A stretch of DNA of 64,000 nucleotides, taken from assembly GCF_042453785.1 (NCBI RefSeq), contig NC_091664.1, positions 29,064,501-29,128,500 of the forward strand. The letters are read 5' to 3'. Positions 1-55,020 of this stretch are shown here, piece after piece. The translations under genes were made by a program, and so were the position numbers. Within the stretch, counting starts at the first letter, position 1; each line of letters opens with the position of its first letter. The stretch comes from Malus domestica. Taxonomy: Eukaryota > Streptophyta > Magnoliopsida > Rosales > Rosaceae. Below the pieces are notes generated by a model. That model saw only the letters and a list, made by a program, of their open reading frames with translations. It was not told where the DNA came from and ran no database searches.

Positions 1-2650
1 GGACAAGACCTTGACACAAGATGTTGTAGATGTCAAGAAGGTAGGAGATAGAATCATAGCAATCAAGATTGTAATAGGACAAGAACTCATCAATGTGATT
101 AGTGCGTACGCACCTTAAGTAGGGTTGGATACGAGTTCGAAGGAGAAATTTTGGGAAGACCTTGGAGACTTGGTACAAGGAATTGCTCAGACGAAGAAGT
201 TATTTATAGGAGGATATTTAAATAGACACGTGGGCAGGGAGACAGGCAACTATGGAAGTTTTCATGGTGGCCATGGTTTTGGAGAGAGAAACGAGAATGG
301 GGAAGCTATCTTGGATTTTGCAATGGCATATGATCTCTTATTAGCCAACACCTTCTTTAAGAAGAGAGAAGAACATGTGATCACCTACAAAAGTAGGTCG
401 TCAAAAACACAAATAAATTTTCTTCTAATGAGGAAATGGGATCGTATAACTTGTAAGGAATGCAAAGTTATACTGGGAGAGAGCTTGGCTAATCAACATC
501 GCTTGTTGGTGATGGATGTACATATCAAAAGAGTGAGAAAAAAGAACAAGACTTGGAAGTGCCCAAGTACTAGATGGTGGAATCTAAAAGGAGAAAAACA
601 GGTCATTTTCAAAGAGAAAGTAATCACCCAGTGTGTGTGGGATAGAGAGGAGGAAGCTAGCCAAATGTGGGATTCCATGGCTAGTTGTATCCGAAAAGTA
701 GCAAAAGAGGTATTAGGAGAGTCCAAGGGCTTTGCTCCACACCAAAAGGAATCTTGGTGGTGGAATGAGGAGGTACAAACAAAGGTGAAGGCTAAGAAGG
801 AATGTTGTAAAGCCTTATACAAGGATAGGACCAATGAAAATGGTGAAAGGTATAGAAGAGCGAAGCAAGAGGCAAAGAAAGCTGTGAGAGAAGCTAAGTT
901 AGCGGCTTATGATGATATGTATAAGCAACTAGATACCAAAGAAGGAGAGTTTGATATCTATAAACTAGCTAGAGTAAGGGAAAAGAAGACAAGTGACCTA
1001 AACCAAGTGAGGTGCATCAAGGATGAGGATGGAAAAGTTCTTGCTACAGAGAACGCGGTCAAAGACAGATGGAGATGTTATTTTCATAATCTTTTCAATA
1101 AAGGACATGAAAGGATTACTTCTTTAGGGGAGTTGAGTAACTCAGAAGAATGTAGAAACTACTCATTTTATCGTCGAATCAGGAAGGAAGAAATGGTTGT
1201 AGCTTTGAAGAAGATGAAGCATAGAAAAGCAGTGGGCCCAGACGATATACCGATTGAAGTGTGGAAAGTCTTGGGAGAGACACGTATAGCATGACTCACT
1301 GACCTTTTCAATAGGATTTTGAAAACGAAGAAGATGTTAAATGAGTGGCGAAAGAGCACTTTGGTGCCTATCTACAAGAATAAGGGCGACGTACAAAATT
1401 GCATGAACTATAGGGGTATTAAGCTCTTGAGTCATACAATGAAGCTCTAGGACAGAGTCATTAAGCATAGATTGAGGCAAGAGACACGGGTTTCGAACAA
1501 CCAATTCGGGTTCATGCCAGGGCGCTCAACCATAGAGGCAATCTATCTCTTACGAAGATTGATAGAAAGATATAGAGATGAGAAAAAGGATTTACACATG
1601 GTCTTTATAGATTTGGAAAAAGAGTATGATAGGGTCCCAAGAGACATTCTTTGGAGGATTTTAGAGAAGAAATGAGTACGAGTAGCATATATCCAAGCTA
1701 TAAAGGATATGTATGAAGGAGCAAAGACTGCCGTAAGAACTCATGAAGGACAAACCGAAAGCTTCCCCATAACTATAGGATTACATCAAGCCTCATCCTT
1801 AAGTCCTTACCTTTTTGCGTTGGTAATGGATGAATTAATAGGACATATTCAATATGATATTCCTTGATGTATGCTTTTCGTAAACGATATAGTGTTGATA
1901 GATGAAACTCAGGAAGGGGTAAATGCGAAGCTTAACCTTTGGAGAAAAGTGTTTGAATCTAAAGGTCTTCGCCTAAGCCGATCAAAGACAGAATATATGG
2001 AGTTTAAGTTCAGTGCAAATGGAGGCCAAAATGAGTTAGGGGTGAGGATCGGAGATCAGGAAATACCAAAGAGCGACCGTTTTCGCTACGTAGGATCTAT
2101 CTTGGAAAAGAACGGAGAATTAGATGGAGATCTCAACCATAGAATACAAGTTGGATGGATGAAGTGGAAGAGTGCATCCGGCGTGTTGTGTGACCGTCGT
2201 ATGCCACTGAAGCTCAAGGGAAAATTTTATAAGACGACAATAAGGCTGGCGATGCTGTATGGCACAGAATGTTGGGTGGTGAAGCATCAACACGTACACA
2301 AAATGGGTGTAGCAGAGATGAGAATGCTTCGTTGGATATGTGGGCACACGAGAAATGATAAGATTAGGAATGAGGATATCCGAGGTAAAGTAGGAGTAGC
2401 CGAAATTGTAGGAAAGCTGAGAGAAAATTGGTTACGGTGGTTTGGACATGTGCAAAGAAGGCCTACTGACGCTCCGGTTAGAAGATGCGACTACGGAACA
2501 GAGGTTCAGGGCCGAAGGGGTAGAGGAAGACCTAGAAAATCTTTGGAAGAGACTCTAAGAAAAGACTTAGAGTACTTGGATCTAACGGAGGACATGACAC
2601 AGGACCGAGCATAATGGCGTTCTAAGATTCATATAGTCGACCCCACTCAG
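1..2650 (+). mobile_element. RTE-type non-LTR retrotransposon (LINE), copy A, 5' end outside window
   Basis: One reading frame can be followed from base 2 to about 2650 and encodes the end of an endonuclease domain and then a reverse transcriptase, in the order typical of LINE ORF2. The 3' part is closely similar to copies at 6134-7006 and 47943-48275. The right border is near 2650, where the sequence changes abruptly to another repeat. Copy B continues at this point into a short 3' end and a TTG tail, which copy A lacks, so copy A is cut at its 3' end too. The clade name (RTE) rests on the C-terminal region and the simple-repeat tail of copy B; I could not run a phylogeny. Confidence 0.88.
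2..2650 (+). pseudogene. RTE endonuclease/reverse transcriptase reading frame, inactivated by in-frame stops
   Basis: The frame shows an endonuclease tail with the SAYAP motif and a His-containing QHRLLV block, and then an RT with [27 protein letters not shown] and a catalytic box. Stops interrupt it in the same frame at 116-118, 1292-1294, 1448-1450, 1673-1675, 1865-1867 and 2612-2614; no frameshift is needed to follow the protein. Key positions are damaged: the usual G-D-L-N endonuclease motif reads G-Y-L-N, QIDFLL reads QINFLL, and the RT A/F-D-D catalytic box reads F-V-N-D. It cannot make a working protein. Most of the stops are explained by C-to-T or G-to-A changes at Trp or Gln codons. 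Confidence 0.88.
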
Positions 2651-2914
2651 TGACTTGGATTTTTCAAGTCTCCAACCGAGAAGTTTTCCTCACTCGGGAA
2701 ATTAAGGGAATACTACCTCAACCTACATGCTCCACTCATAAAGCTTCAACATACAAGCTTCAACAAAAGAAAAATTCAAAGAACTTAGTGAAGAAGGCTT
2801 TGGTGTATTTAACACAATATGTTGAAATCAAGCAAAGCTTATTTATTGATATCTCCGATAAGTTACAAATATGTACATATACATGAGTCAAAATAAACAA
2901 ACAAGAGGGAGCCT

Positions 2915-3588
2915 TCACAAAGGTTGCTTAGGAGAAGTTTCAGCAGTCGGTAGAGCCCCAAAAAGAGAAGGCACCGGAGGGGGATCATTCGGAGCCTCAG
3001 TATTGGACAGAACCCTAGAAGGATGAGGCATCGTAGGTTGATCATTTGGAGCTTCATTACGCGGTACAGCCCTAGAAAACGAAGGCAATAAATGCCTTTG
3101 GAACAAACCCACAAACCTTTGATGATCAAGTAAAATCTGACCATTAGATTTCTTCATCTGGTCAAGCTTCCTCTTCATGTTTGTAGCATAGTCATGTGCG
3201 AGCCGGTGCAGCTGTTTATTCTCATGTTTGAGCCCTCTAATCTCCTGTTGAGACTCATCACTTCAGCCGCCAATGATTCAACTTGGCGAGTTCGAGCAAA
3301 TAGGCGTTGGGCCATATTAGACACAGAACCTGCACACTGAACACTGAGAGCCAGAGAATCCTTAACAGCCAACTCATCAGACCGTTTGGAAAGTAGTCTA
3401 TTATCTTAGGGAGTGAAAAGGTTCCTGGCCACCACCGCAGCGGTCATATCATTCTTCATCACGGAATCCCCAACGATAAGAGGACCAGTAGGGGATAAGA
3501 AGGATGAGCGTCATATATTGTCTGGAGAAGGCGTGGCTGCCTCTTCAACAAGGTTCAAGTCAAAACGACGGTCGGAAGGGCCAGACAT
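2915..3588 (-). pseudogene. Decayed ORF of the LARD-like element, unknown function
   Basis: Read on the minus strand from an ATG at 3586-3588, the frame starts MSGPSDRRFDLNLVEEA and ends SPKQPL followed by a stop at 2915-2917. The frame is broken by a stop near 3519, another near 3408, and a one-base loss near 3246. That loss shifts the frame between the MSL and QEIRGLKHENKQLHR segments. The middle is heptad-like and probably coiled coil. The C-terminal part is proline-rich with repeated EAPND motifs. It resembles short ORFs carried by a Rosaceae repeat family. I do not recognise a gag zinc knuckle or any enzymatic motif. Confidence 0.6.
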
Positions 3589-3770
3589 TTTCAAATGTGT
3601 TGAAGAGAGAAGAGGTCGGACAAATCAAGATATTAGAAGTGCAAGAATAGAGCTTCTACTGGTAGAGATTCAAGTGTGCTTTGGAACTTAATGCCAGCCT
3701 CTATAAAATTCTGCACTCGACGGAGCTTCAGAAATCGAAGAGGCGCCTGCTCAGAAATCGAAGAGGTGTT

Positions 3771-3896
3771 TGCTTTCTCAAAAGCTGGGCTGCTCAAAGA
3801 CCACGAGGGCCGATCTTAGAAATCGAATCGAATACACGTTTGCTTTCTCAAAAGCTGGGCTGCTCAAAGACCGCGAATGCCGATCTCAGAAATCGA
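3771..3896 (+). repeat. Two-copy direct repeat, period 70 bp
   Basis: A unit beginning TGCTTTCTCAAAAGCTGGGC occurs at 3771 and again at 3841, followed in both copies by CTGCTCAAAGACC and a GAAATCGAA end. It is part of the interior of the LARD-like element. Confidence 0.85.
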
Positions 3897-4350
3897 AAAG
3901 ACACCTGTTTTTTCAACCTTGTCAGCACCTGTCACATGCACACTCAGCTTCGTGGAAATTACGGGCATTCTATCGAAGATTTCTGGTGAAGTAGAAAGCA
4001 CGTGAATCTTACTGTTCAATAATCCATTTTCCACACGCAATATCAGCTCATGGGTACCATAGATAACTTTGCCAAAGATCACTGACAAAGTTTAGACGCG
4101 TGAAGTTTGCAGCTTCCACTATATCGCTATGACCAAGAAGGGTAAAAGAATAGCAAAGAAACAGCACTAACAAAGTTTAGACACATAAATTTTGAAGGTC
4201 TAGCTACCATATTATTACCCACAAAGGTAAAGGAACAGCACCACTGCTGGATAATTGGAAAGTCCCTGTGTGTCAACCTCTGTGCTCCATGGCAAGGTAG
4301 ACTAGTAAACATGCCCAACCTTTACTCACATTCGAGAAAACACTCCCAAC

Positions 4351-4602
4351 AAGATTGCTTGCTCCAAAATCGAAAAGGCACCGTCCTCCGAATCTCGAGA
4401 GCCAGACTCCTAACATGCTTACTTTCTCAAAAATCGAAGAGACACCACTCTCCGAATCTCGAGAGCCAGACTCCCAGCAGGATTGCTTTCTCAAAAATCG
4501 AAGAGGCATCGTTCTTCGAATCTCAAGAGCCAGATCCCCGACAGAATTGTTTGTTCAAAAACCGAAGAGGCACCGCTTTCTCAACTTCGAGAGCCAGATC
4601 TC
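4351..4602 (+). repeat. Four-unit imperfect tandem repeat, period about 63-66 bp
   Basis: Each unit carries an AAATCGAAGAGGCACC-like block followed by CTCGAGAGCCAGACTCC and a GATTGCTTTCTC-like spacer. Four diverged units are visible. The same GAAATCGAAGAGG word also occurs in the repeat near 3730-3900, so the whole internal region of this element grew by local duplication. Confidence 0.85.
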
Positions 4603-4939
4603 CTTGGATAAAACTTGTCTGTAACTTCACACGCAACATCAGCTTTCCAGATACCACATACCACTTTTTCAAAGTGCTCTGACAGAGTTAAAACACGTGA
4701 AGCTGGAAGCTCCCACTACTGTGCTATGACCAAGCAGGGTAAAGGAATAACATTACTACTTGTTGTTAGGGATACTCCTATATATGTCGACCTTCATCCT
4801 CAACTGACAGGTTGCAAAAATCCTCAACCTTTCCTCATATCTGAGAGGACACTCCCAACAAAGCCTCTTGAAATACTCAGTTTTCTTTCCCCCCGATAAT
4901 ACCTCTGTAAAAAAGCTACACCAGAGCAAGAATATCTCA

Positions 4940-5810
4940 TATCATCAGGGTTAAAAGCAAGAGTATCTCATATCATGCTTTTTCCCTGTCTTTTCCTTTG
5001 GCCTTGTTCTTACCTGCAAGATAAGGAGAAAGAAAGCAATCAGTCAGCACTTGGAATCAAGCTTCCAGTCAGGAACTGACTGCCTGGAACCCCTTACCTG
5101 ATTACTTACCTGGCATTGCTCTCGAGTACTCATCTTCAACATCTTATGCTTCCAGAGAAGATACCACATCTGCCTGAGGAACAGATAGGGCAAGTGAGAA
5201 GGATACAAGGAAGCATGTGGAGACAAACGTAACAGAACACGTGCCGATACATCCACTACTTTGTCAACAGCAAAAGTATCCCATATCAGCAGGGTCGAAC
5301 GTACTCTAGATTTGATGGACTTGTTTTAACTCTCAAATTCTTCAGTCGGCCTTATACTCTGGAGGAAACCAGAAAACCCTCTAGCCCAGTTCAAGAATAA
5401 GCCTGTGGAAAGTTACTTCTTCAAAAGCAAAAGTATCTCATATCATCTCTTCTCATTTTTCTTCTCTTTATCCTTCATGCTGCCTGCAAGATAGGGAGAA
5501 TGAGAACAATCAGCCGGAACTCGAAATCAAACTTCTAATCTGGGACTGATTGCTTGGAGCTCTGATTGCTTACCTTGTCTGTCACCTCTTTCAGCAGATC
5601 CCCTAGCTTGGTGACTTGAGGGACTCCTACTACATGGTTTGTATCGCGCTTGACCAAGCCTGAAACTACATGCAAGCTTCAAGTGAAATTGATACATTAC
5701 CTTGTGCATCTCCACCAGTTAAAGATACCACCCCTAGATGGAGGAAGAGTACTTCCAGAGAAGATGCCACATCTACCTATGAGACAGATAAGGCAAGTGA
5801 AGACGATACC
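4940..5810 (+). repeat. Diverged direct duplication inside the LARD-like element
   Basis: Segments starting AGCAAGAGTATCTCATATCA (about 4958) and AGCAAAAGTATCTCATATCA (about 5424) are followed by the same order of landmarks: CTGCAAGATA-GGAGAA, a CAATCAG block, a CTTCCAGAGAAGAT block and a GACAGATA-GGCAAGTG block (5150-5195 versus 5750-5795). The copies are clearly related but diverged by substitutions and small indels. Confidence 0.75.
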
Positions 5811-6133: not shown

Positions 6134-7006
6134 ATCCTTAAGTCCTTAATGGATGAGTTAACAAGACATATTCAAGATGATACTCCTTGGTGCATGCTTT
6201 TCGTAAACGATATAGTGTTGATAGATGAAACTCGGGAAGGGGTAAATGCGAAGCTTAACCTCTCGAGAGAAATGTTGGAATCTAAAGGTCTTCGCCTAAG
6301 CCGATCAAAGACAGAATATATGGAGTGCAAGTTTAGTGCAAATGGAGGCCAAAATGAGTTAGGGGTGAGGATTGGAGATCAGGAAATACCAAAAAGCGAC
6401 CGTTTTCGCTACCTAGGATCTATCTTGCAAAAGAACGGAGAATTAGATGGAGATCTCAACCATAGAATACAAGCTGGATGGATGAAGTGGAAGAGTGCAT
6501 CTGACGTGTTGTGTGACCGTCGTAGGCCACTGAAGCTCAAGGGAAAATTTCATAGGACGGCAATAAGGCTGGCGATGCTGTATGGCACAGAATGTTGGGC
6601 GGTGAAGTATCAACACGTACACAAAATGGGTGTAGCGGAGATGAGGATGCTTCGTTGGATGTGTGGGCACACGAGAAAGGATAAGATTAGGAATGAGGAT
6701 ATCCGAGGTAAAGTAGGAGTAGCCGAAATTGAAGGAAAGATGAGAGAAAATCGGTTACGGTGGTTTGGACATGTGCAAAGAAGGCCTACTGACGCTCTAG
6801 TTCGAAGATGTGACTACGGGACAGAGGTTCAAGGCCGAAGGGGTAGAGGAAAACCTAGGAAAACTTTGGAAGAGACCCTAAGAAAAGACTTAGAGTACTT
6901 GGATCTAACGGAGGATATGACACAAAACCGAGCGCAATGGCGTTCTAGGATTCATATAGCCGACCTCACTTAGTGGGAAAAGGCTTTGTTGTTGTTGTTG
7001 TTGTTG
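6134..7006 (+). mobile_element. RTE-type LINE, copy B, 5'-truncated, with complete 3' tail
   Basis: The sequence starts within the RT palm region (ATCCTTAAGTCC; compare 1794-1807 in copy A) and lacks 16 bp present in copy A just before ATGGATGA. An open frame (6149-6973, 274 codons) covers the FVND box, the thumb and the C-terminal DYGTEVQGRRGRG region. It carries none of the copy A stops. The 3' end is GGGAAAAGGC followed by seven TTG units (6986-7006), the simple-sequence tail expected for RTE elements. The 5' truncation coincides exactly with the end of the LTR-like sequence. Confidence 0.88.
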
Positions 7007-7347: not shown

Positions 7348-8364
7348 GTTGCTGCCTTCAGAGCAACACTGGAGGAGATATCAGAGTCATCATTGTTGTA
7401 TGTGGTGGATATCAGGTACAATATATTTGGAAACCTTTGAAATGATGCATTCGTGATGGAGAACATTGTTACCTTATTAGATGTTGATATCAACTTCAGT
7501 CATCCACTGGCTGAGCAACAGGTAAAAGCTGTAGACAAAGTTTTGTCAGAACTAGACGTGTCTGCAATTCCAAAGTTGCTGGTGTGGAACAAGGTACAGT
7601 GAATGTACAGTGAATTTCCTTGATGGCTCAGTTATTAATCCGTGAGGAACTCTATTTTTATCATCATATCTGTGAATTCTGTGGTGGTGGTTGTTCGTTT
7701 ATTTGCGTGGAGTTCGCATGGGTCTTCTTTTATAAATACTGATGATCATGAACCGGGTTTCATTCGTGAAGCGTATACACAAGATTGATGATACACGACT
7801 AATATTTTGCAGGCTGATAAGTTAAGTGATCCTGAAAGCATAAAGTTTAAAGCAGAAATGAGAAATGATGTAGTTTGCATATCTGCTCTGGCCCTCTGGG
7901 TGGTGAGGGCATAAATAAGCTGCAGAAAAAATTGAAGGTACGAGGGCTTGTTTCACTGTCCACTTTTGATACTCGAGAGTTGAGTCTGTACTTACATGAA
8001 GTGACAGCAATATGTTGCTTAACAGGACTCTATGGTATGGGTGGAAGCCTTGATCCCGCTCAAGGAAGGGGAGCTTCTTAGACCATACATAAGGTTGGAA
8101 TGGTGGAGAGAACGGTAAGTATGCAGTGGATGTTGATTTTTAGGTAAACTTTTTGGTATGTGAGTATGATAGACGATATCCGACCCTTGCAAAGCAGGAA
8201 GCTTTTGTTGGCTTGGGTACGTGCATGCGTCTCAGTTTCATTATCGTTCTAAACATTTTGTATATTTATAGGAATATACGGACAAAGGAACGCTGATAAA
8301 GGCACACGTACCGCTGTGGTATGCAAGGTTACTAACACCAATGAGGCAACTGTGCATATCATGA
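7348..8364 (+). pseudogene. HflX-type GTPase gene, 3' remnant (pseudogene)
   Basis: Five exon remnants with good splice borders encode the second half of a plastid-type HflX GTPase: 7348-7415 (VAAFRATLEEISESS), 7500-7593 (SHPLAEQ to VWNK), 7813-7937 (ADKLSDPE, completing the NKxD G4 motif, then VCISAL, the G5 region), 8026-8114 (DSMVWVEALIP) and 8272-8364 (EYTDKGTLIKAHVPL to a stop). An insertion of about 8 bases after CISAL (near 7890) brings a stop in frame, and one base is missing near 8080. Exons for the N-terminal domain and the G1-G3 motifs are absent; RTE copy B lies where the upstream intron should be. HflX proteins bind ribosomes in bacteria and plastids. This copy cannot encode one. 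The introns show it is not a retrocopy. Confidence 0.82.
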
Positions 8365-43469: not shown

Positions 43470-44993
43470 TCAATTATCGGAGAGCACGAATTTACTTATC
43501 TCATCCATCACGGTGTAGAAATGCTCATTATTCGGCAACAGGTAGAAACCAATTGTGGCCTGCTCAAGATACATAAGTTTGATGTTTTTGCCAGCACTCT
43601 CGAGCCCTCTGGCGTAAGCCAATTGCCAGTCCTGAACAAGATCCAAACCAGCCACCACAACAAGGCTCTTCGGGAACTTGACAGCTTCGAGGCTTTGACC
43701 ACGGGGACCAAATGGGTTACATGCTGGATGGTCCCTATCTTCACCATCAGGGAGAAAAGCTCTCCAGTACCAGTCCCGGTCTTGGATGGTTACAAAGTAT
43801 TTCCCATCCAATCGCAACTCGGATTCAGTCCGCTCCTGCCCACCAAACATAGGGTTGAGCAGTATATTTCCCAGTACATTGATTCCAGATTCTGCTGCTC
43901 TTAAAGCAACATTGTGTACAATGTTCCCGCCAGAGCTATCGCCAGCTAGATAGATATGAACGTTTGAGTCCCTTGTACTTTTAAGCCATGATCTAGAGTT
44001 CACCCACCTCAGGGCTGTCCATCCATCATCATAGGCACATGGATAGCGATTTTCAGGAGCCCTACGATAATTCACAGAGACCACTACAGCCTTGCAGATA
44101 CCAACTAGTCGGCGACACAGAATATCATATATACCACTGTTTGAAGAGGAGTGTGCAAAGCTTCCACCATGGAAGAAAACTATGACAGGAAGAACCTCTT
44201 GGCTCACCGCTCTCTCAGGATCAACAATGTTCAGCGGGGATAGATTAGCATCGTCCGGATGATAGATTCGACTGAGCAGGCTAGTTTCACGGTCGATGAT
44301 GACATCAAACGAGACAACCCCATCAACAGGGTTAGAATTGGCTGGCACTTTCCGGTCAAGGAATTCTGCCAAGTGGCGGTTGAAGGTCCCGTCAGGGCGG
44401 CGCAGAAGATTGTATGACAGCTTAAAATTGGAGATGAGGACCCATGTATTCAATGGAACCACCATCTGTAAAAAGAGCGCATCCGATTCCATAAATTTTT
44501 TACATATGTCAATGTCTTATTCCAACATAACAACAACACAAAACCAACAAAAACATTCCCGTAAAGATGTAGAATCGCAAACAAACCGGAAAAACACATG
44601 TTCATCTATACATTTTCTTAGAGCTGAAGCTTTCCCATGACAAAACCACAACATTAAATCCATCAAACAATGAAATCTCCAACCAAGAACATCTCCAAAA
44701 CATGATGAACTCGAACAAGCATAACAAACCCAATAATCATATCCTTATCAAACATTAAAAACAGCTAAAAACCTCAACTCAAACCAGAACAATGTCTTCA
44801 TCCCCAATGAAAGAAACAAATCAGCTTTTCAACAACAAAATCACAAACCAAAAACCGTATCCCAGATAACCCATTAAGATAAACTCCATCCAACATAAAA
44901 AAACACAGAAAAAATCAAACTTTGAATCAGCAAAAACCAAAGAAAAGTTGTTACCCTGGATTCACTAACGTTGACTTCATTGCCCCCAGACAT
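43470..44993 (-). CDS. GID1: Gibberellin receptor GID1 (GID1B/C-like)
   Basis: On the minus strand exon 1 (44955-44993) gives MSGGNEVNVSESR, and exon 2 (43470-44465) continues MVVPLNTWVLISNFK to KFVLSDN. The total is 344 residues, the family's normal length, with one intron of 489 bp at the position conserved in GID1 genes. The protein has the hormone-sensitive-lipase fold: HGGSFAHSSSN (residues 112-122), GDSSG with Ser190, and GLDLVQDWQ. The third catalytic residue, His in true lipases, is Ile318 (ATIGFYLLPNN), as expected for GID1, which binds gibberellin rather than hydrolysing esters. The N-terminal lid that closes on gibberellin and contacts DELLA is complete. It should act as a nuclear and cytosolic receptor promoting DELLA degradation. 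All diagnostic residues are intact. Confidence 0.96.
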
Positions 44994-47060: not shown

Positions 47061-47942
47061 ATAACTAGCAATTGCACGCATGCTATGCATGTTTTGAGCA
47101 ATTGAGGAGTTTTATTCTTCAAAAGAGAGGTGAAGAGAATGTGGGATTGTGAGAAATTAAAATTTCTATTAAATTGACTATGTAGTTTGACATATCCTTG
47201 ATAATTAATATTGTTGTTTAATATACTAAGGCCAAAATTGAAAAAATAAGAACATAATTGAAATTTTATAAAAGGTCTTACTTTCTTAATAATAGTATAG
47301 ATGTATATATATGTACGTGTTAAGATTAAGGGACAAAAAATTTAACACGTATATTTTTTTTAACCTTTAGATCTATACACATCTAACGGTTATGAATAGA
47401 AATCAACATGACTCATCAAAACTCAATATTAAATGATATGGCCATACATGAAAATAAAAGTAAATTTCAACTAATAAAAATATTTTGAGAAAAGTTAAAA
47501 GCATAAAATTGATAAATCTGTTTTTAAAAATTGGCTGTGAGGGCTTGATGTGTTTCCCCTCCCCTTTCGATTACAGTGTCTTTCTGATATTTCTCTTTTC
47601 AGTTTTATTTTATTTCAATTTTATTTCTTATTGATTTTCTTATTAATTATAATTCCTTATTGCCACCATACCATTGTATGACAATAAAGCTTCCACATCA
47701 TCTCTATTTATAACCATTGAATGTTATGAAACCTAATGATTTAAAACAAGTGTAAGATATTTGTCAAAAACTCTGTTCCTTGGTCCTGACCCTATATACA
47801 TGTGGAAGTGAATTAAGTATATTGCTTAAGCATTAGTGACTTAGGCAAGTTGTTCATGCAAATGTGAGTTAGACAAGTTGGTATGTCGTTGCTTTACAAA
47901 AGAAGAAAAAAAAAGCGTTGGTGGTGCCGAAATACCAACTTG
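47061..47942. other. AT-rich spacer, no gene recognised
   Basis: This stretch has no coding signal. It contains the detached array fragment at 47835-47885 and an A-rich run just before the RTE fragment. Confidence 0.55.
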
Positions 47943-48275
47943 TTAGGGGTGAGGATCGGAGATCAAGAAATACCAAAGAACGACGGCTTTCGCTACTTAG
48001 GATCTATCTTGCAAAAGAATGGATGAAGTGGAAGAGTGCATCCGGCGTGTTGTGTGACCGCCATATGCCACTAAAGCTCAAGGGAAAATTTTATAAGACG
48101 GCAATAAGGTCGGCGATGCTGTATGGCACAGAATGTTAGGCGGTGAAGCATCAACAAGTACATAAAATGGGTGTAGCGGAGATAAGGATGTTTCGTTGGA
48201 TGTGTGGGCACACGAGAAATGATAAAATTAAGAATGAGGATATCCGAGATAAAGTAGGAATAACCGAAATTGAAT
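47943..48275 (+). mobile_element. RTE-type LINE fragment, copy C
   Basis: Closely similar to 2038-2410 of copy A and 6361-6733 of copy B, beginning GTTAGGGGTGAGGATCGG. About 43 bp present in both other copies are missing after GCAAAAGAA (near 48019), which shifts the frame, and TGG at 48137-48139 has become TAG. The fragment ends near 48275 in the middle of the C-terminal domain, and neither natural end is present. Confidence 0.9.
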
Positions 48276-48627
48276 GAAATATATCCTTCAATTTAAGATA
48301 TCCTTCAAACGAGTTAAATTGGACGAAAGTATACCATGCTAACCTCGAATTCTTTTGGGAAAAGAATCCCGTTAAGTAGGAGGTTATGTGTTTGCTCTTA
48401 CACTAAGATTTTAAGCTCAGCAACTGGTGAATCAGGTAATTTTTATTTTGATACTTCTTATTCTTGTTCAATTAACTTTATTTTCCAATCTAAATTTATT
48501 ATTAAATATATTTTTTGGGCCTCTTGCTTTTAGCCACGTTTTCAAGCAAAAAAGAGTGTAGATTATTGATTTTTCAAAAACAAATCATCAATCAAAGAGG
48601 AGAAATGAGGAATTTAAAATTGGGAAC

Positions 48628-48774: not shown

Positions 48775-49692
48775 ATTCAAAATTTTGGATGGATGGAGCA
48801 ATAAAAGCTTGAGGGCGTGCGTTGGAAGGTAGGGCACGTGAGGACAAACAGAGTCCGTCCGAACACTAAAGTACAACTCTTTTGGCGGTGCCGGAATGAC
48901 CCTTTTGTCTTTCTTTTTAGCTTTTATTTACGGCAATGTCATTGCGACATTTTATCCTACGTGTCAGTGGATCAATTGTAGAATTATGACATAACTAGAA
49001 TGCAAAAACAATTTAATCTTCTGTCACAAAACAAATCATACGTAGTAATATAATTTTACACAAAATAAATTTGAAATTTTTTTTTCCAAACCTCACCAAT
49101 ATATCATCGTAACATCTCTATTATTTTTATTTTTTTATATTTATAGACGCATAGTATGTAAGCTTTTTTAATGATGAATTATAGTTGTGTCATGTAAATT
49201 GTTTTAACAGACTTGACAGCAGGTAATCAATGAAATATAAGTTGAGTTTTAAAAAGTTCGGTGATAAAATTTGAATATTAAGAAATTAATTGAGACTTAA
49301 GTTGAATTTCACAACTTGACGGTAGGTAATCAATGAAATATAAGTTGAGTTTTAAAAAGTTCGGTGATAAAATTTGAATATTAGGAAATTAATTGAGACT
49401 TAAATTGAATTTCACAATGCTATCAAACCTATTTCATGCAAGAAAAGATTCTCATGATCCACTTATTGAATTTCAGAATTTTAGGCAACATTTTTGCAAT
49501 GCTCTTAATTTGGATACTTTATTTTAATTGGCCTCATAAACTTCGAATTTGGTTGTTGACAAAAAAGAAAATATTTAATTTGATTTCATCTCTCAAATTG
49601 AGTGTTATTTTCGTCCATTTGATAAAACTTTATTTTATCAACAATTGTAATTTAATGAAATTTGAACTCATGTCTTCCCAATAATGTTTATT
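48775..49692. other. Spacer with a short tandem duplication
   Basis: AT-rich with no recognised gene. The ORF at 49436-49684 is low-complexity and unsupported. The duplication at 49211-49416 is listed separately. Confidence 0.55.
49211..49416 (+). repeat. 103-bp tandem duplication
   Basis: The unit beginning ACTTGACAGCAGGTAATCAA at 49211 recurs at 49314 with only a few differences (ACTTGACGGTAGG; TTAAG versus TTAGG; AAGTTG versus AAATTG). The copies abut exactly. Confidence 0.92.
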
Positions 49693-51095
49693 GAGTAAAC
49701 TGTCATTTAACCCCCTGAACTATCACGCGAGTTTCAATTTCCCCCCTGAACTATTTTTTCAGCCAATTGACCCCCTAAACTATGTTAAAGTGGCCAATTA
49801 ACCCCCTACCGTTAAGTATCTTTAACTCCATCTAATTTTCTGTTAGAAAGTGTCATGTGCTTGGCACATGACCACCTTTTTACATTTTATGTCTAAATCG
49901 TTACAAAGAAAACATATAAAACAAATATTAAAAAAAAAAAAAACTTACAAACCCTAAACATCATTCAAAATAATAGAAAAGGTAAGGCTTTTTATATTAA
50001 CACTCCACAAAATGTTGAATGCACCCCATATTAAAATTTAATATTAAATGACTTATTTACTCCACTATGCAATGACAATTTTTACCTTATTAGGTTTTAA
50101 AAAAAAATTATAAATACACTCCGAATCACTTTTAGCGTATTATCTTCTCAACTATCAAAACCCTCTCATCCTCCATTGTTGAACAAAATCCTAACCAATG
50201 AAACTACAAACATGTTGATTGAGAAAAATTGTTTTTGACGAATGAAACACGAAATCGATGTTTCTGAAGCTTCACATGAGGTAAGACTTCACATTTTTCA
50301 TTGTTTTTGTGATTTCGATGACATCGATAATTATTTAATCTTGCGTTTGCTGCATTATTTAAACTTATATATTCATATTCATATTCATATTCATATTCAT
50401 CTTTTAGCGTTCATATTGAAAAATAATGCAGCAAACGCAAGATTAAATAATTATCGATGTAATCAAAATCATTAAAACAATGAAAAATGTGAAGTCTTAC
50501 CTCATGTGAAGCTTCAGAAACATCGCTTTCGTGTTTCATTCGTCAAAAATAATTTTTCTCAATCAACATGTTTGTAGTTTCATTGGTTAGGATTTTGTTC
50601 AACAATGGAGGATGAGAGGGTTTTGATAGTTGAGAAGATAAATAATACGCTAAAAGTGATTTGGAGTGTATTTATAATTTTTTTTTTTAAACCTAATAAG
50701 GTCAAAATTGTCATTGCATAGTGGAGTAAATAAGTCATTTAATATTAAATTTTAATATGGGGTGCATTCAACATTTTGTGGAGTGTTAATATAAAACGCC
50801 TTACCTTTTCTATTATTTTGAATGATTAAGTTTAGGGTTTGTAAGTTTTTTTTTTTTTAATATTTGTTTTATATGTTTTCTTTGTAAAGATTTAGACATA
50901 AAATGTAAAAAGGTGGTCATGTGCCAAGCACATGACACTTTCTAACAGAAAATTGGATGAAGTTAAAGATACTTAACGGTAGGGGGTTAATTGGCCACTT
51001 TAACATAGTTTAGGGGGTCAATTGGCTAAAAAAATAGTTCAGGGGGGAAATTGAAACTCACGTGATAGTTCAGGGGGTTAAATGACAGTTTACTC
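49693..51095. mobile_element. Near-perfect 1.4-kb palindrome (foldback / long-inverted-repeat element)
   Basis: The left arm starts GAGTAAACTGTCATTTAACC at 49693 and the right arm ends with its reverse complement at 51095. Pairing continues inwards through TGGCACATGACCACC / GGTGGTCATGTGCCA, the TATTAAAATTTAATATTAAA region, and TTGCGTTTGCTGCATTATTT / AAATAATGCAGCAAACGCAA. That gives arms of about 670 bp and a loop of about 60 bp (50361-50420) containing a TTCATA-repeat. Differences between arms are few: a C/T pair in GAACTATCACGCGAG versus CTCACGTGATAG, an A-run length change and some small indels. There is no transposase ORF and no clear target-site duplication. It is probably a non-autonomous foldback transposon, although an inverted duplication by another route is not excluded. 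Confidence 0.9.
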
Positions 51096-51299
51096 TAATT
51101 TTTTATATGGAGAAATTAGGTTTTCATCCTTCATTTTACTACTCCATTGATTAAAATCATATTCCTTTTCAATTTTTGATCGAGGTCATTGGGTATTAAT
51201 AACATCATTAATTATTTTAATAATAATTTTTTTTTTATTTCTAAATATATTCATTTAATGTTAAAAATGTTACAATTAGTATATTTATATTTATGACTA

Positions 51300-51749
51300 A
51301 ATTTTTATCATATATTTTTAGTTTTAGTTTGTACCCATTTTTAATTTTTAATTTTTTTTTTAATTTGTACCAATTTTCTTTTCAATTTTAATTTGTACCC
51401 ATATATTAATTTCTTTTTGTGCTCATATTTTTAAAAATTTATTTGTATTTGTACCCATATTTTTTTTATTTGTACTTTTTATTTTGCTAAATGTACCCAT
51501 TCATGTAAAACTTTTTAATCTTAAAATGTACTCATTCTTAAATATACGAATTTGTTATAAGTAAAATGTACCATTTTTTATATAAAATCTATTCAATTTT
51601 TTTATAATCCATTTTTATACTTATATGGGTACATTCTTTTTTTTTTTTTTTTTAAATTTATCCATACGAAGTTTAATTGAATAAATTTATTAATGTTATT
51701 AAGCCTAATATTTTCTTTTTTTTTTGGTGATTTTGAAGAATGTACCCAT
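51300..51749 (+). repeat. AT-rich region with repeated GTACCCAT words
   Basis: TTTGTACCCAT or a close variant recurs about eight times amid poly-T and AT-rich DNA. The pattern resumes at 54026-54080 beyond the solo LTR, which shows one repeat block split by the LTR insertion. Confidence 0.7.
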
Positions 51750-54025
51750 TGTGGCAGCCCGTTTCGAATGTTTATATTATTTTGTCCTCGAGAGTGTGGA
51801 AGTTACTAATTTACTCTTGAACGTTACGTGGTGAGGGTGTAATTGAACTAGGTTGGGACCAATCCATTTTCTTCCTTAGCTTTTGGACCCAATTAGAATT
51901 AAGTTTTTCTTTGTTTTTGGTTGTTGACCCAACCTGGACCACACAATCACACACACACCAAACCGTTGACCTTCTCTCTCTTCCTTCTCGGATTTCTTCC
52001 ATTGTCCGTACAACCGTACAGACAACTTTCAAACTTACCTTTTTATGCACAAATCGACGTCGAGGAGGTGGTTTTCATGTTCCTTGTGAGCCCAAGAGTT
52101 CATTTATATCCTTGGTTCGACGTGAGAACTCGTATAACTCGAGAACCAGAAAACCCTTATTTGGTACACTGTTCACTCGACGTGATTGCGAAGGTTTCAG
52201 GTAGTTTTGAGACTTAAGAATGTTTTATTCTTGCTTTTCTAGCACTTTGGATTAATTTTGGAAGGTTTTGGACGTTAGGAAGCTCAGGTTTGGCAAGTTG
52301 CAGGGTGGCAGGATTATCGTGACTTTTCCAACGAGTTTTCGTTGGTTTTAGGTCCCAAAATGGTAGGGAATCGTTCCTCTCATCCTAAGCTTCAATTTGG
52401 TACAAATTTCGTGAATTTTGGTTGAAAAACGAAAGAGAGATTGAGAATTTTCAGTTTTCCATAAACTGGCGATTGCAGCGGCAGCGACGCCGTCGCTGGA
52501 CTCTGGCGAACCAAGGAAGAATGAGGTGAATATTCCGTCAAAATTGACGAATATTCTAATGGCGTCAGGTATCTTTAATGACATATTCTATTATTTAACG
52601 GAATATTCCCTAACGCCGTTAGGGAATCCGTCAGTGTGCCAGACACGTGCCTGCGAGTGGGCCGCGTGTCTGGCCGTGCCTTGGCTAGCGTGTGGATGCT
52701 TGGAAATTTTTTCTAAAAATATAGGGATGTTCGTGGAGTTAAGTAGGCCACGTTGGTATATTCAAACACCTCAATTGAGCAATGTATGAGAAGTTTATAG
52801 CTAGTTTTGGTTATGTGCTTTAAAATAACGTTTATATAGTTGTTTCGCATATAGGTGAGACCTATCCTGAGGACGAGCACAATCAAGCGAGACTCGGGGG
52901 CTACGACCCTTCCACATATCAGTGAGTGGGCTTTTGGTTTTCAGTATATACTTATATACTTGGTATTTTTCCCATAAAATGTGTTTAAATGAAATTATGT
53001 TTTGTAATGCCATGCCTATTGATTTATGCTTAGATTGTGAATTAGTATAGTATGCATAAATGTGATTTGACGCTGTGGAAGCTCATTTAAGTACCAGGTG
53101 AGTGGTAGATTGTTAGTATGAATTGATGATTATGTGAGATGTGCTGAGAACTCATAAACCTGCACCCCGGTGTTAATGCTCCCGCCTGTGGTTAGGGCAC
53201 ACTCCTTCACATGATGTTCACCTCCCATATCACACGCTCTTCTGGGATCCAAGTTTAGTGCACAGTCATGTCGTACATACCACTATAGGTGGTTCCGACT
53301 CGTAGATGACCCACGATTATTCACACAGTCTTCACGTGATCGTAGCACTAGAGCGTATTTATTTACACCCATTCCTATCATACAGACCACTTTAGGTGGT
53401 TCCGACTCGTGTGCAGACATACTTGTTGAGCTATAGATTAAGCCGCACATGCCACTTCAGGTGGATCCGGCTGATATGTTATTTCTCATGAGTTATTTCA
53501 CCTAAGTTACTTATTCAGTTATTTTGAGATATTTGGCATGGCATACTTTTGAATATTGCTATTATGAGCATGGTTTTGAGATATATATATATTCTATTTT
53601 CTGAAAAATTATATAGGTTTTACGGCGAGGGGTTAGAACTTTTGATAAATTAAATGGTTTTGAAAACCTTTTTTTTGCCCACTCACACTTTCTGTTTTGC
53701 GCCCCTCCAGGTTTTAGGTAGGAGTGCTTGTTGGTGGCTTACGAGGATTTGACGGAGGTTCTGACTGATTATATCAAATGTAGGATCCTCTCTGGGTGTT
53801 GTATAATTAGTATTCGTCCTGCTGGACTGCACTTAGGTTACTTATACTCTGGTTGTGCAATCACACTTAATATCGCACTTGCACCTTATCTCATCTAGTG
53901 CTCTAATTGGTTTGGTTTTTTGTTTATTCGTATTTCTTATATTAATATTGCTTCCGCACTGTGCACATGGCTACGTCACCCTCACGTGACGACCAATATG
54001 CCTTGATCTAAGTCGGGGTGTGTCA
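51750..54025 (+). mobile_element. Solo LTR, probably Ty3/Gypsy-type, 2276 bp, with 5-bp target duplication
   Basis: The block starts TGTGGCAGCCCG at 51750 and ends CGGGGTGTGTCA at 54025, giving the TG...CA termini of an LTR. It is flanked on both sides by CCCAT (51745-51749 and 54026-54030), a 5-bp target-site duplication. The DNA on either side belongs to the same GTACCCAT-rich region. There is no internal retrotransposon coding region and no second LTR, so it is best read as a solo LTR left by recombination between the two LTRs. The orientation is uncertain, and Gypsy is inferred from length and end sequence only. ORFs inside it are not credible genes. Confidence 0.82.
53280..53464 (+). repeat. 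Three small hairpin motifs within the solo LTR
   Basis: CCACTATAGGTGG (53280-53292), CCACTTTAGGTGG (53387-53399) and CCACTTCAGGTGG (53452-53464) each form a CCAC/GTGG stem. Each is followed by TTCCGACTCG or the similar ATCCGGCTG. They are three copies of one short module, which could be a regulatory site of the LTR or a duplication relic. Confidence 0.7.
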
Positions 54026-54030
54026 CCCAT

Positions 54031-55020
54031 GTTTTGATACAATAATTTTTTTGGTTAATTTTGATGAATGTACCCATGTATACACACACACACACACACA
54101 ATAGTATATTTATATTTTAATATTTTTAATTCCACAAATTATGGTTTTTTATTTAAAATCTCATTTATATAAACAACTAAAATTTCTAATTTTTAATTTA
54201 AAAAATATAGTAACATACATAGAAATAAATTATCACATTAATTTCAGGGACCTCTGTCAAAAATTAAAAATCAACAAGGTTTCAATCAAAGAATTTTCAT
54301 AGGTAAGGACGGCATCCAAAGTCTCTATTTTTATATTTATTATATAAAAACAAATTATTGTAGGTTGCTAGTGGATTTAAACTTGCTTAATGGCAATAAA
54401 TTTTGTGCAAATGATATTTGTTGTAGACTTCTATTTGGAGAATAAAAGCAAAAGATGCTTCGCAATCACTTCTAAAAAAAGCAATTTCGTCGAAAAACAA
54501 TTCACATAAAAATGCTTGTGACAATACTTAATTTGTAAACAAAAGCTCTTGATGTTTTTTCCCCTTCTAAAATCGATTGGGACAATGTTTCACTTTCACA
54601 TTTAGTCATTGTCATTAAGTCCATAAACAAGCTAACCTAAAGCTTACTTATTTATCAACCTCTTTTGCTTCTTCTATGCTTTTCAACTTTTTGAACACAA
54701 CACTTATGCTTTTGATCATGATTAGTCTTTGCATCCTTTTCATTTTAACCTTCTTTTGTTGTTGTTATTTGGGTAACATTCACTTTTGACATCTGAACAC
54801 GAATATCTATTCATTCAAATCGCGCGATGTGTGAGATACGAACAACTGTTGCACACGTGTCATACATGTTTTAATGCTCGGTAATCATATGAAAGATTCT
54901 TAAATCTCAATATAATTTCTCTTAAAGCGAAATATGATACATTACTTGCAATTGGGTGAATATTAAAGTAGATACACTTACAAGATGAACTCAAACATTT
55001 TCTTAGGTTTTTTAGCCAAA
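54031..55020. other. Intergenic spacer, no gene recognised
   Basis: AT-rich. A CA microsatellite lies at 54082-54100. No coding signal. Confidence 0.55.

Follow-up and report, generated by a model that had tools for sequence, protein, structure and literature searches.

Mutator-like elements (MULEs) are characterised, in the passages cited, by target-site duplications (TSDs) of 9–11 bp and terminal inverted repeats (TIRs) that are typically 100–500 bp long (PMC3310237), or by TSDs of 8–11 bp and TIRs of 14–500 bp (PMC6446971). Several plant MULEs are of the foldback type, with long TIRs, as the element described here probably is: FARE of Arabidopsis and Jittery of maize (PMC4486113, PMC3169594), and MuTAnT of Medicago, a dispersed element consisting of nearly pure TIR (PMC4486113). 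Long inverted repeats derived from MULEs have also been linked to silencing. The maize Mu killer locus is a partial inverted duplication of mudrA with two copies of TIRA, and in the portion of the report cited its silencing accompanied short antisense transcripts, not a demonstrated hairpin (PMC3440606). In this study, we analysed a 1.4-kb palindrome of the apple genome, the family to which it belongs, and the origin of the likeness between its two arms.

A long foldback element with abrupt ends

The window, i.e., the whole stretch of 64,000 nucleotides under analysis (C4:29064501-29128500), had been described in a first-pass annotation, made from the letters alone, as containing a near-perfect palindrome with repeated words at its ends and no transposase, any transcript of which would fold into a long double-stranded RNA. 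This description was borne out. The coordinates proved exact (Table 1): the inverted similarity begins at 49693 (GAGTAAACTG...) and stops at 51095, abruptly at GAGTAAACTG on both sides, with no clear continuation outside these limits. The two arms are identical at 652 of 667 aligned bases (97.8%) and differ by 15 substitutions and by four indels of 1, 3, 1 and 4 bases. Loop lengths in the family are 42, 48, 49, 54, 60 and 112 bases. The end words are real, as six of the eight window matches to CCCCCTGAACTAT (with at most 2 mismatches) fall within the arms, whereas the expectation for the entire window is about one. Two open frames of the palindrome that were compared with Pfam have no match, and an Rfam scan of the window gave no match at gathering score. 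RNA of the whole element, as would arise from read-through transcription, is predicted to fold into one hairpin of -1060 kcal/mol (a value without shuffled controls at such length).

Table 1. Coordinates of the palindrome, its parts and its right flank in the window.
Feature	Position	Strand	Remarks
Whole foldback element	49693..51095	.	One copy of the family
Left arm	49693..50360	+	Terminal inverted repeat, 668 bp
Loop	50361..50420	.	60 bases, (ATATTC)n at 50369-50400
Right arm	50421..51095	-	Terminal inverted repeat, 675 bp
Element end	49693..49712	+	12/20 bases match the maize MuDR TIRA end
Three subterminal CCCCCTGAACTAT-type words	49711..49783	+	At 49711, 49742 and 49771
Mirror of the three CCCCCTGAACTAT-type words	51005..51077	-	Right arm
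Small hairpin nested in each arm	49852..49872	+	Mirror at 50916-50936
TATAAATA box reading inward, putative promoter	50109..50116	+	Mirror at 50669-50676 on the - strand (by eye)
Splice-donor-like site GAG/GTAAGA after a short open frame	50281..50282	+	In 50/64 arms
Start of right flank, TAATTTTTTAT	51096..51106	+	Compared with left flank TAATGTTTATT at 49682-49692

The surroundings of the palindrome contain several other sequences. To its left, a 103-bp unit is present in 2.2 tandem copies (49195-49417). Pieces of a single repeat, 91–95% alike where they overlap, lie at 1824-2418, 6147-6741 and 47942-48282. The repeat at 47.6–48.5 kb, once translated, contains a 19-residue stretch in broken frames that we take to be from a LINE reverse transcriptase. 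The alpha/beta hydrolase frame at 43470-44492 (Pfam Abhydrolase_3) presumably encodes a gibberellin receptor GID1.

Dispersed copies flanked by target-site duplications

The first-pass annotation had treated the palindrome as the most unusual object of the window and proposed a search for other copies as a check. The genome (651 Mb, 19 contigs) was searched with the left arm, which gave at least 77 matches, with 40 of 1199 first-look candidates scored. Grouped by eye, these correspond to at least 38 dispersed loci, 34 of the 38 having both ends, and the palindrome is thus not an isolated object. The true copy number is probably larger than 38, since only 40 of the 606 first-look candidates obtained with a 158-base end query were scored. 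The 15-base end GAGTAAACTGTCATT is conserved without mismatch in 60 of 64 arms. Viral contigs gave no match to the exact 25-base end, and plasmids none to the arm query.

Exact TSDs of 9–10 bp flank 30 of the 34 two-ended copies (21 at 10 bp, 9 at 9 bp), and the number rises to 32 with at most one mismatch, two copies having a single mismatch. A clear TSD is absent from the window copy (L001) and from L026. As a control, flanks were mispaired, which gave 3 exact pairs out of 1122 and 12 out of 1122 with at most one mismatch. The duplications are 87% A+T vs 67% in the flanks. The earlier remark that there is no clear target duplication therefore applies to the window copy but not to the family. 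The best pair at the window copy, TAATGTTTATT and TAATTTTTTAT, has 3 mismatches in 11; it could be what is left of a duplication or no duplication at all, because 31 of the 1122 mispaired flanks match equally well.

The left flank of the window copy is unique in the genome search except for one 41-base match, and the start of its right flank coincides, to within a few bases, with the edge of another dispersed repeat, which runs from ~51096-51104 to 51749 and resumes at 54026. This AT-rich repeat (51104-51749 and 54026-54246) bears GTACCC words and is also found near the palindrome copies L002, L005, L006 and L028. It is split by a solo-LTR-like insertion of 2276 bp (51750-54025; TG...CA, CCCAT duplications), the first 651 bases of which gave 815 first-look genome candidates, 40 of them scored. 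We considered whether AATGTTTATA at 51767 could be the right TSD of the palindrome displaced behind a second insertion; this was rejected because the position lies inside the solo-LTR-like insertion, which has its own CCCAT duplication.

TSD counts omit the loci that do not have two intact ends together, which leaves the 34 copies: the copy at C5:4179203-4193025, the left arm of which is interrupted by a ~12-kb insertion (L010 and L011), L039, with a broken right arm, and L031 and L037, with one arm each. L007 was left out as being the same element as L002. The two single-arm loci were examined as possible autonomous elements and rejected; since their 9.9-kb stretches contain only the one arm, we read them as palindromes that have been truncated. 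Their arms (4568-5239 in L031, 4595-5261 in L037) adjoin gene-like sequence, a Gly/Pro/Gln-rich frame without Pfam match in the former and a stretch that we assume to be CCCH-zinc-finger-like in the latter. L080, on C2, one of the 40 scored end-query candidates, was also rejected as an autonomous element, being a 232-bp fragment of the palindrome end (8076-8306). It is located ~520 bp upstream of an open frame encoding a TIR domain, which is followed by an NB-ARC frame, so that an arm fragment lies near a resistance-type gene.

A probable foldback transposon of the MULE type

Because the copies are dispersed and share their ends, 9–10 bp TSDs and long TIRs, we assign the palindrome, with a probability of about 0.88, to the non-autonomous Mutator-like foldback transposons: the palindrome would have formed in an ancestor and been copied by a MULE transposase provided in trans. 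Membership among MULEs is based on the TSDs, the exact ones of which (30/34 vs 3/1122 in the control) lie in the 9–11 bp range, and on the TIRs, which are long and have conserved ends. The element also has the features of foldback elements and long-TIR MITEs, as inverted repeats fill almost all of it, no coding part was recognised and copies are many. The likeness of its end to the MuDR TIRA end, taken from a primer sequence (PMC2563033), is modest, 224 of 127,960 window positions scoring 12 or more, and is only suggestive of a relation to Mu ends.

MULE transposase domains have at least 151 matches in the genome (150 of 482 candidates scored). No autonomous partner with these ends was present among 30 of these MULE-domain loci, taken as stretches of ~3.3 kb that are often too short to reach the ends of an element, nor among the five of them that were also taken as 8-kb stretches. 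One MULE-domain locus, L078, has 488-bp inverted repeats that are 98% identical and measures ~4 kb end to end (1710-5780); it may represent a full-length MULE belonging to a different family.

Literature searches on MULE, foldback and MITE elements, on FARE, on apple MITEs and MULEs and on long inverted repeats with MULEs or siRNA gave, among the titles listed, none matching the family, which is not proof of novelty; those on the end words of the element gave, among the titles listed, none about transposons. Judged by these titles, this is a new family of foldback MULEs, of an already known kind. What is unusual is the length of the arms with almost no interior, the spreading of this form as a unit, and a mutation footprint at CHH sites.

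An excess of C-to-T changes at CHH sites

Private substitutions were counted in three subfamilies of the palindrome, A, B and C (21 copies, 42 arms). Among 87 private substitutions, 63 were C:G>T:A and 2 were A:T>G:C, the latter corresponding to 2/19211. By context, the private changes were 4/618 at CG and 5/481 at CHG, both small counts, and 53/7059 at CHH. The two strands were alike (C>T 0.0080, G>A 0.0070), as were the two arms (31 and 32). Two three-copy MULE families of the same genome served as control, families with fewer than three copies being left out; their changes were led by CG (CG 47/480, CHG 25/405, CHH 67/3444, A:T>G:C 51/7566). As the control families are older and the three-copy design inflates reverse changes, the palindromes were recounted in triples, using 18 copies within subfamilies and 15 across. 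Triples within subfamilies gave CG 3/522, CHG 12/405, CHH 61/6021 and A:T>G:C 9/16440, and triples across subfamilies CG 24/468, CHG 17/324, CHH 126/5037 and A:T>G:C 43/13509. The ratio of CHH to A:T>G:C was therefore ~18 within and ~8 across subfamilies vs 3 in the control, and that of CG to CHH 0.6 and 2.1 vs 5. Thus, the CHH excess shrinks in matched triples yet stays.

RNA-directed DNA methylation (RdDM) is an established plant pathway with strong CHH methylation. The footprint fits such methylation, or deamination of single-stranded DNA, and the mutation pattern cannot tell hairpin-derived from Pol IV-derived siRNAs. If single-stranded DNA were exposed and deaminated when the palindrome is extruded or copied, the C>T excess would be unrelated to siRNAs, and the similar private rates in the CG, CHG and CHH contexts, on both strands and in both arms would follow. 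However, plant RdDM predicts the same evenness of strand, arm and context, and the rates at CG and CHG in the triples across subfamilies are double that at CHH, as methylation predicts; we consider the deamination explanation unlikely.

Putative inward promoters

The TATAAATA box is present in 58 of 64 arms, and in the left arm of the window copy the donor-like site lies 172 bases beyond it. Together, box and donor resemble a head-to-head duplication of the 5' end of a MULE gene. We treat their retention as a lead only, because near-identical copies keep motifs without selection. A transcript starting about 30 bases downstream of the TATA box and running to its mirror is predicted to fold with 221 pairs.

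These features allow a further reading, compatible with the assignment to foldback MULEs, in which the element acts as a mobile silencer resembling Mu killer: inward promoters would give rise to hairpin siRNAs that silence, in trans, both the parent element and its family, and the tempering effect on the family would be the reason why the form was kept. The resemblance of the arms to one MULE end with promoter and first exon (TATA box in 58/64, donor in 50/64), the predicted 221-pair fold and the nearly context-independent C>T footprint are consistent with it, and the partial inverted mudrA duplication with two TIRA copies provides a precedent (PMC3440606). Yet the parent element was not found among the MULE-domain loci and end-query candidates examined, the motifs stay in young copies regardless, and RdDM of a 1.4-kb transposon needs no hairpin of its own. 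Moreover, the silencing described for Mu killer itself, in the passages cited, was associated with short antisense transcripts and not with a demonstrated hairpin (PMC3440606), and the apple family amplified to dozens of copies despite the putative silencing. We therefore regard this joint claim, including the part that the form was kept for its tempering effect, as improbable. Should it nevertheless apply, the family would be a self-spreading Mu killer, a transposon reduced to two copies of one MULE end, each with its inward promoter, and with each insertion a hairpin-siRNA gene directed against the family, and the near equal mutation rates at CG, CHG and CHH would be a fossil trace of self-silencing.

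The palindrome predates its copies in the subfamilies compared

The first-pass annotation had attributed the likeness of the arms to a young inversion or to gene conversion. To compare arms, those of 32 copies were oriented by the loop and then aligned, L018 and L038 being omitted for their short arms. Over all 32 copies, the identity between left (L) and right (R) arms is 0.9702 within a copy vs 0.9658 between copies, and is higher within the copy in 25 of 32 cases (Wilcoxon p 0.00015). Considered in isolation, this excess would point to conversion. It is explained by subfamily structure, and conversion in subfamily founders could also account for it. Inside subfamilies, the L-R identities within a copy and among same-subfamily copies are 0.9708 vs 0.9708 in A (5 copies), 0.9669 vs 0.9674 in B (9 copies), 0.9663 vs 0.9665 in C (7 copies), 0.9783 vs 0.9783 in D and 0.9863 vs 0.9863 in E. 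L-L and R-R identities are 0.986–0.9985 over subfamilies A–E and 0.986–0.996 in A–C. L clades and R clades are each monophyletic (support 93–100) in all five groups; the groups had been defined on the first tree, itself built from these data. In subfamilies A and E the L clade and the R clade unite in a single clade (support 90 and 100), a topology compatible with older homogenisation or with separate origins of these subfamilies. The L and R arms of the same copy are sisters in 2 of 32 copies (L003 and L040), and 3 of 82 private substitutions are shared with the other arm of the copy.

In subfamilies A–C the arms diverge by ~3% and the copies are ~0.4–1.4% apart. From these divergences, the equality of L-R identities inside subfamilies and the L and R clades, we conclude that in A–C the palindrome came first and the copies later; in the subfamilies compared, it predates the copies and, as their sequences indicate, was spread by transposition. 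A palindrome older than its copies means that a young inversion or gene conversion at the window copy is not the cause of the likeness, and this explanation is ruled out by the subfamily comparison and by the rarity of sister arms. The first tree had hinted at an arm swap in L022, which was half borne out: its right arm is 0.982–0.987 identical to B/C left arms vs 0.968–0.969 to B/C right arms, and its left arm is not clearly right-like. L022 is a possible chimera or flip.

Gene conversion would also be at work if the palindrome were not a transposon at all but a host-derived or local inverted duplication, a hairpin siRNA gene whose arms are kept alike. The sharp bounds of the palindrome, the lack of a clear TSD at the window copy, the all-copy excess of within-copy identity and the three private changes common to both arms of a copy agree with such an origin. 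However, the copies at dispersed loci, which share their ends and are flanked by TSDs, contradict a local duplication, the excess is gone inside subfamilies A–C, and only two copies have their own arms as sisters, which makes this origin very improbable. Finally, although chimeric inverted reads can yield sharply bounded palindromes, an assembly artefact is virtually ruled out because the arms differ by their substitutions and indels, the loop is unlike the sequencing-adapter sequence compared, and the same structure occurs at 34 loci with different flanks, 30 of them with exact TSDs.

Discussion

We propose that the palindrome arose in an ancestor, probably when one end of a larger element was duplicated in inverted orientation, and that a MULE transposase acting in trans would have copied it to many sites, as suggested by the shared ends and the 9–10 bp TSDs. 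In the subfamilies compared, the likeness of the arms is inherited from these ancestors. Transcripts across the element, started in neighbouring genes or at the inward TATA boxes, are predicted to give hairpin RNA, either as a by-product or as a function. Judging from the mutations, cytosines of the family are probably methylated by the plant in every context, in an RdDM-like manner.

Dozens of near-identical hairpin elements with different neighbours in one genome constitute a natural set for studying three questions: whether a transposon family can be silenced by the long hairpins that it forms itself, whether such silencing depends on read-through from adjacent genes, and whether past targeting by siRNAs can be read from CHH mutation patterns when small-RNA data are lacking.

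Compared with the MULEs surveyed in PMC6446971, the family has the same combination of a 9–10 bp TSD with long TIRs, but its arms of 668–675 bp, separated by a 60-base loop, exceed the 14–500 bp given there. MuTAnT is alike in being a dispersed foldback MULE of nearly pure TIR; in the sections cited, however, it was first described as a 292-bp element with 144-bp TIRs, 90% of its copies measure 200–300 bp and it sits in TA microsatellites (PMC4486113), whereas the apple element is 1.4 kb long, with arms of ~670 bp, and occupies ordinary AT-rich sites. The Arabidopsis IR71 and IR2039 loci are likewise endogenous inverted repeats able to form hairpins; they are cited as characterised hairpin loci in a study of pear small RNAs (PMC4791883), while the hairpin of the palindrome is predicted. 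Mu killer shares with the apple family an inverted duplication of one MULE end and a possible long hairpin. It is, in the passages cited, a single locus for which a ~4-kb hairpin containing mudrA sequence has been proposed, and it silences MuDR (PMC3440606); the palindrome family, whose silencing effect is hypothetical, is multi-copy, with no coding part recognised. In form, the family may be likened to a mobile Mu killer.
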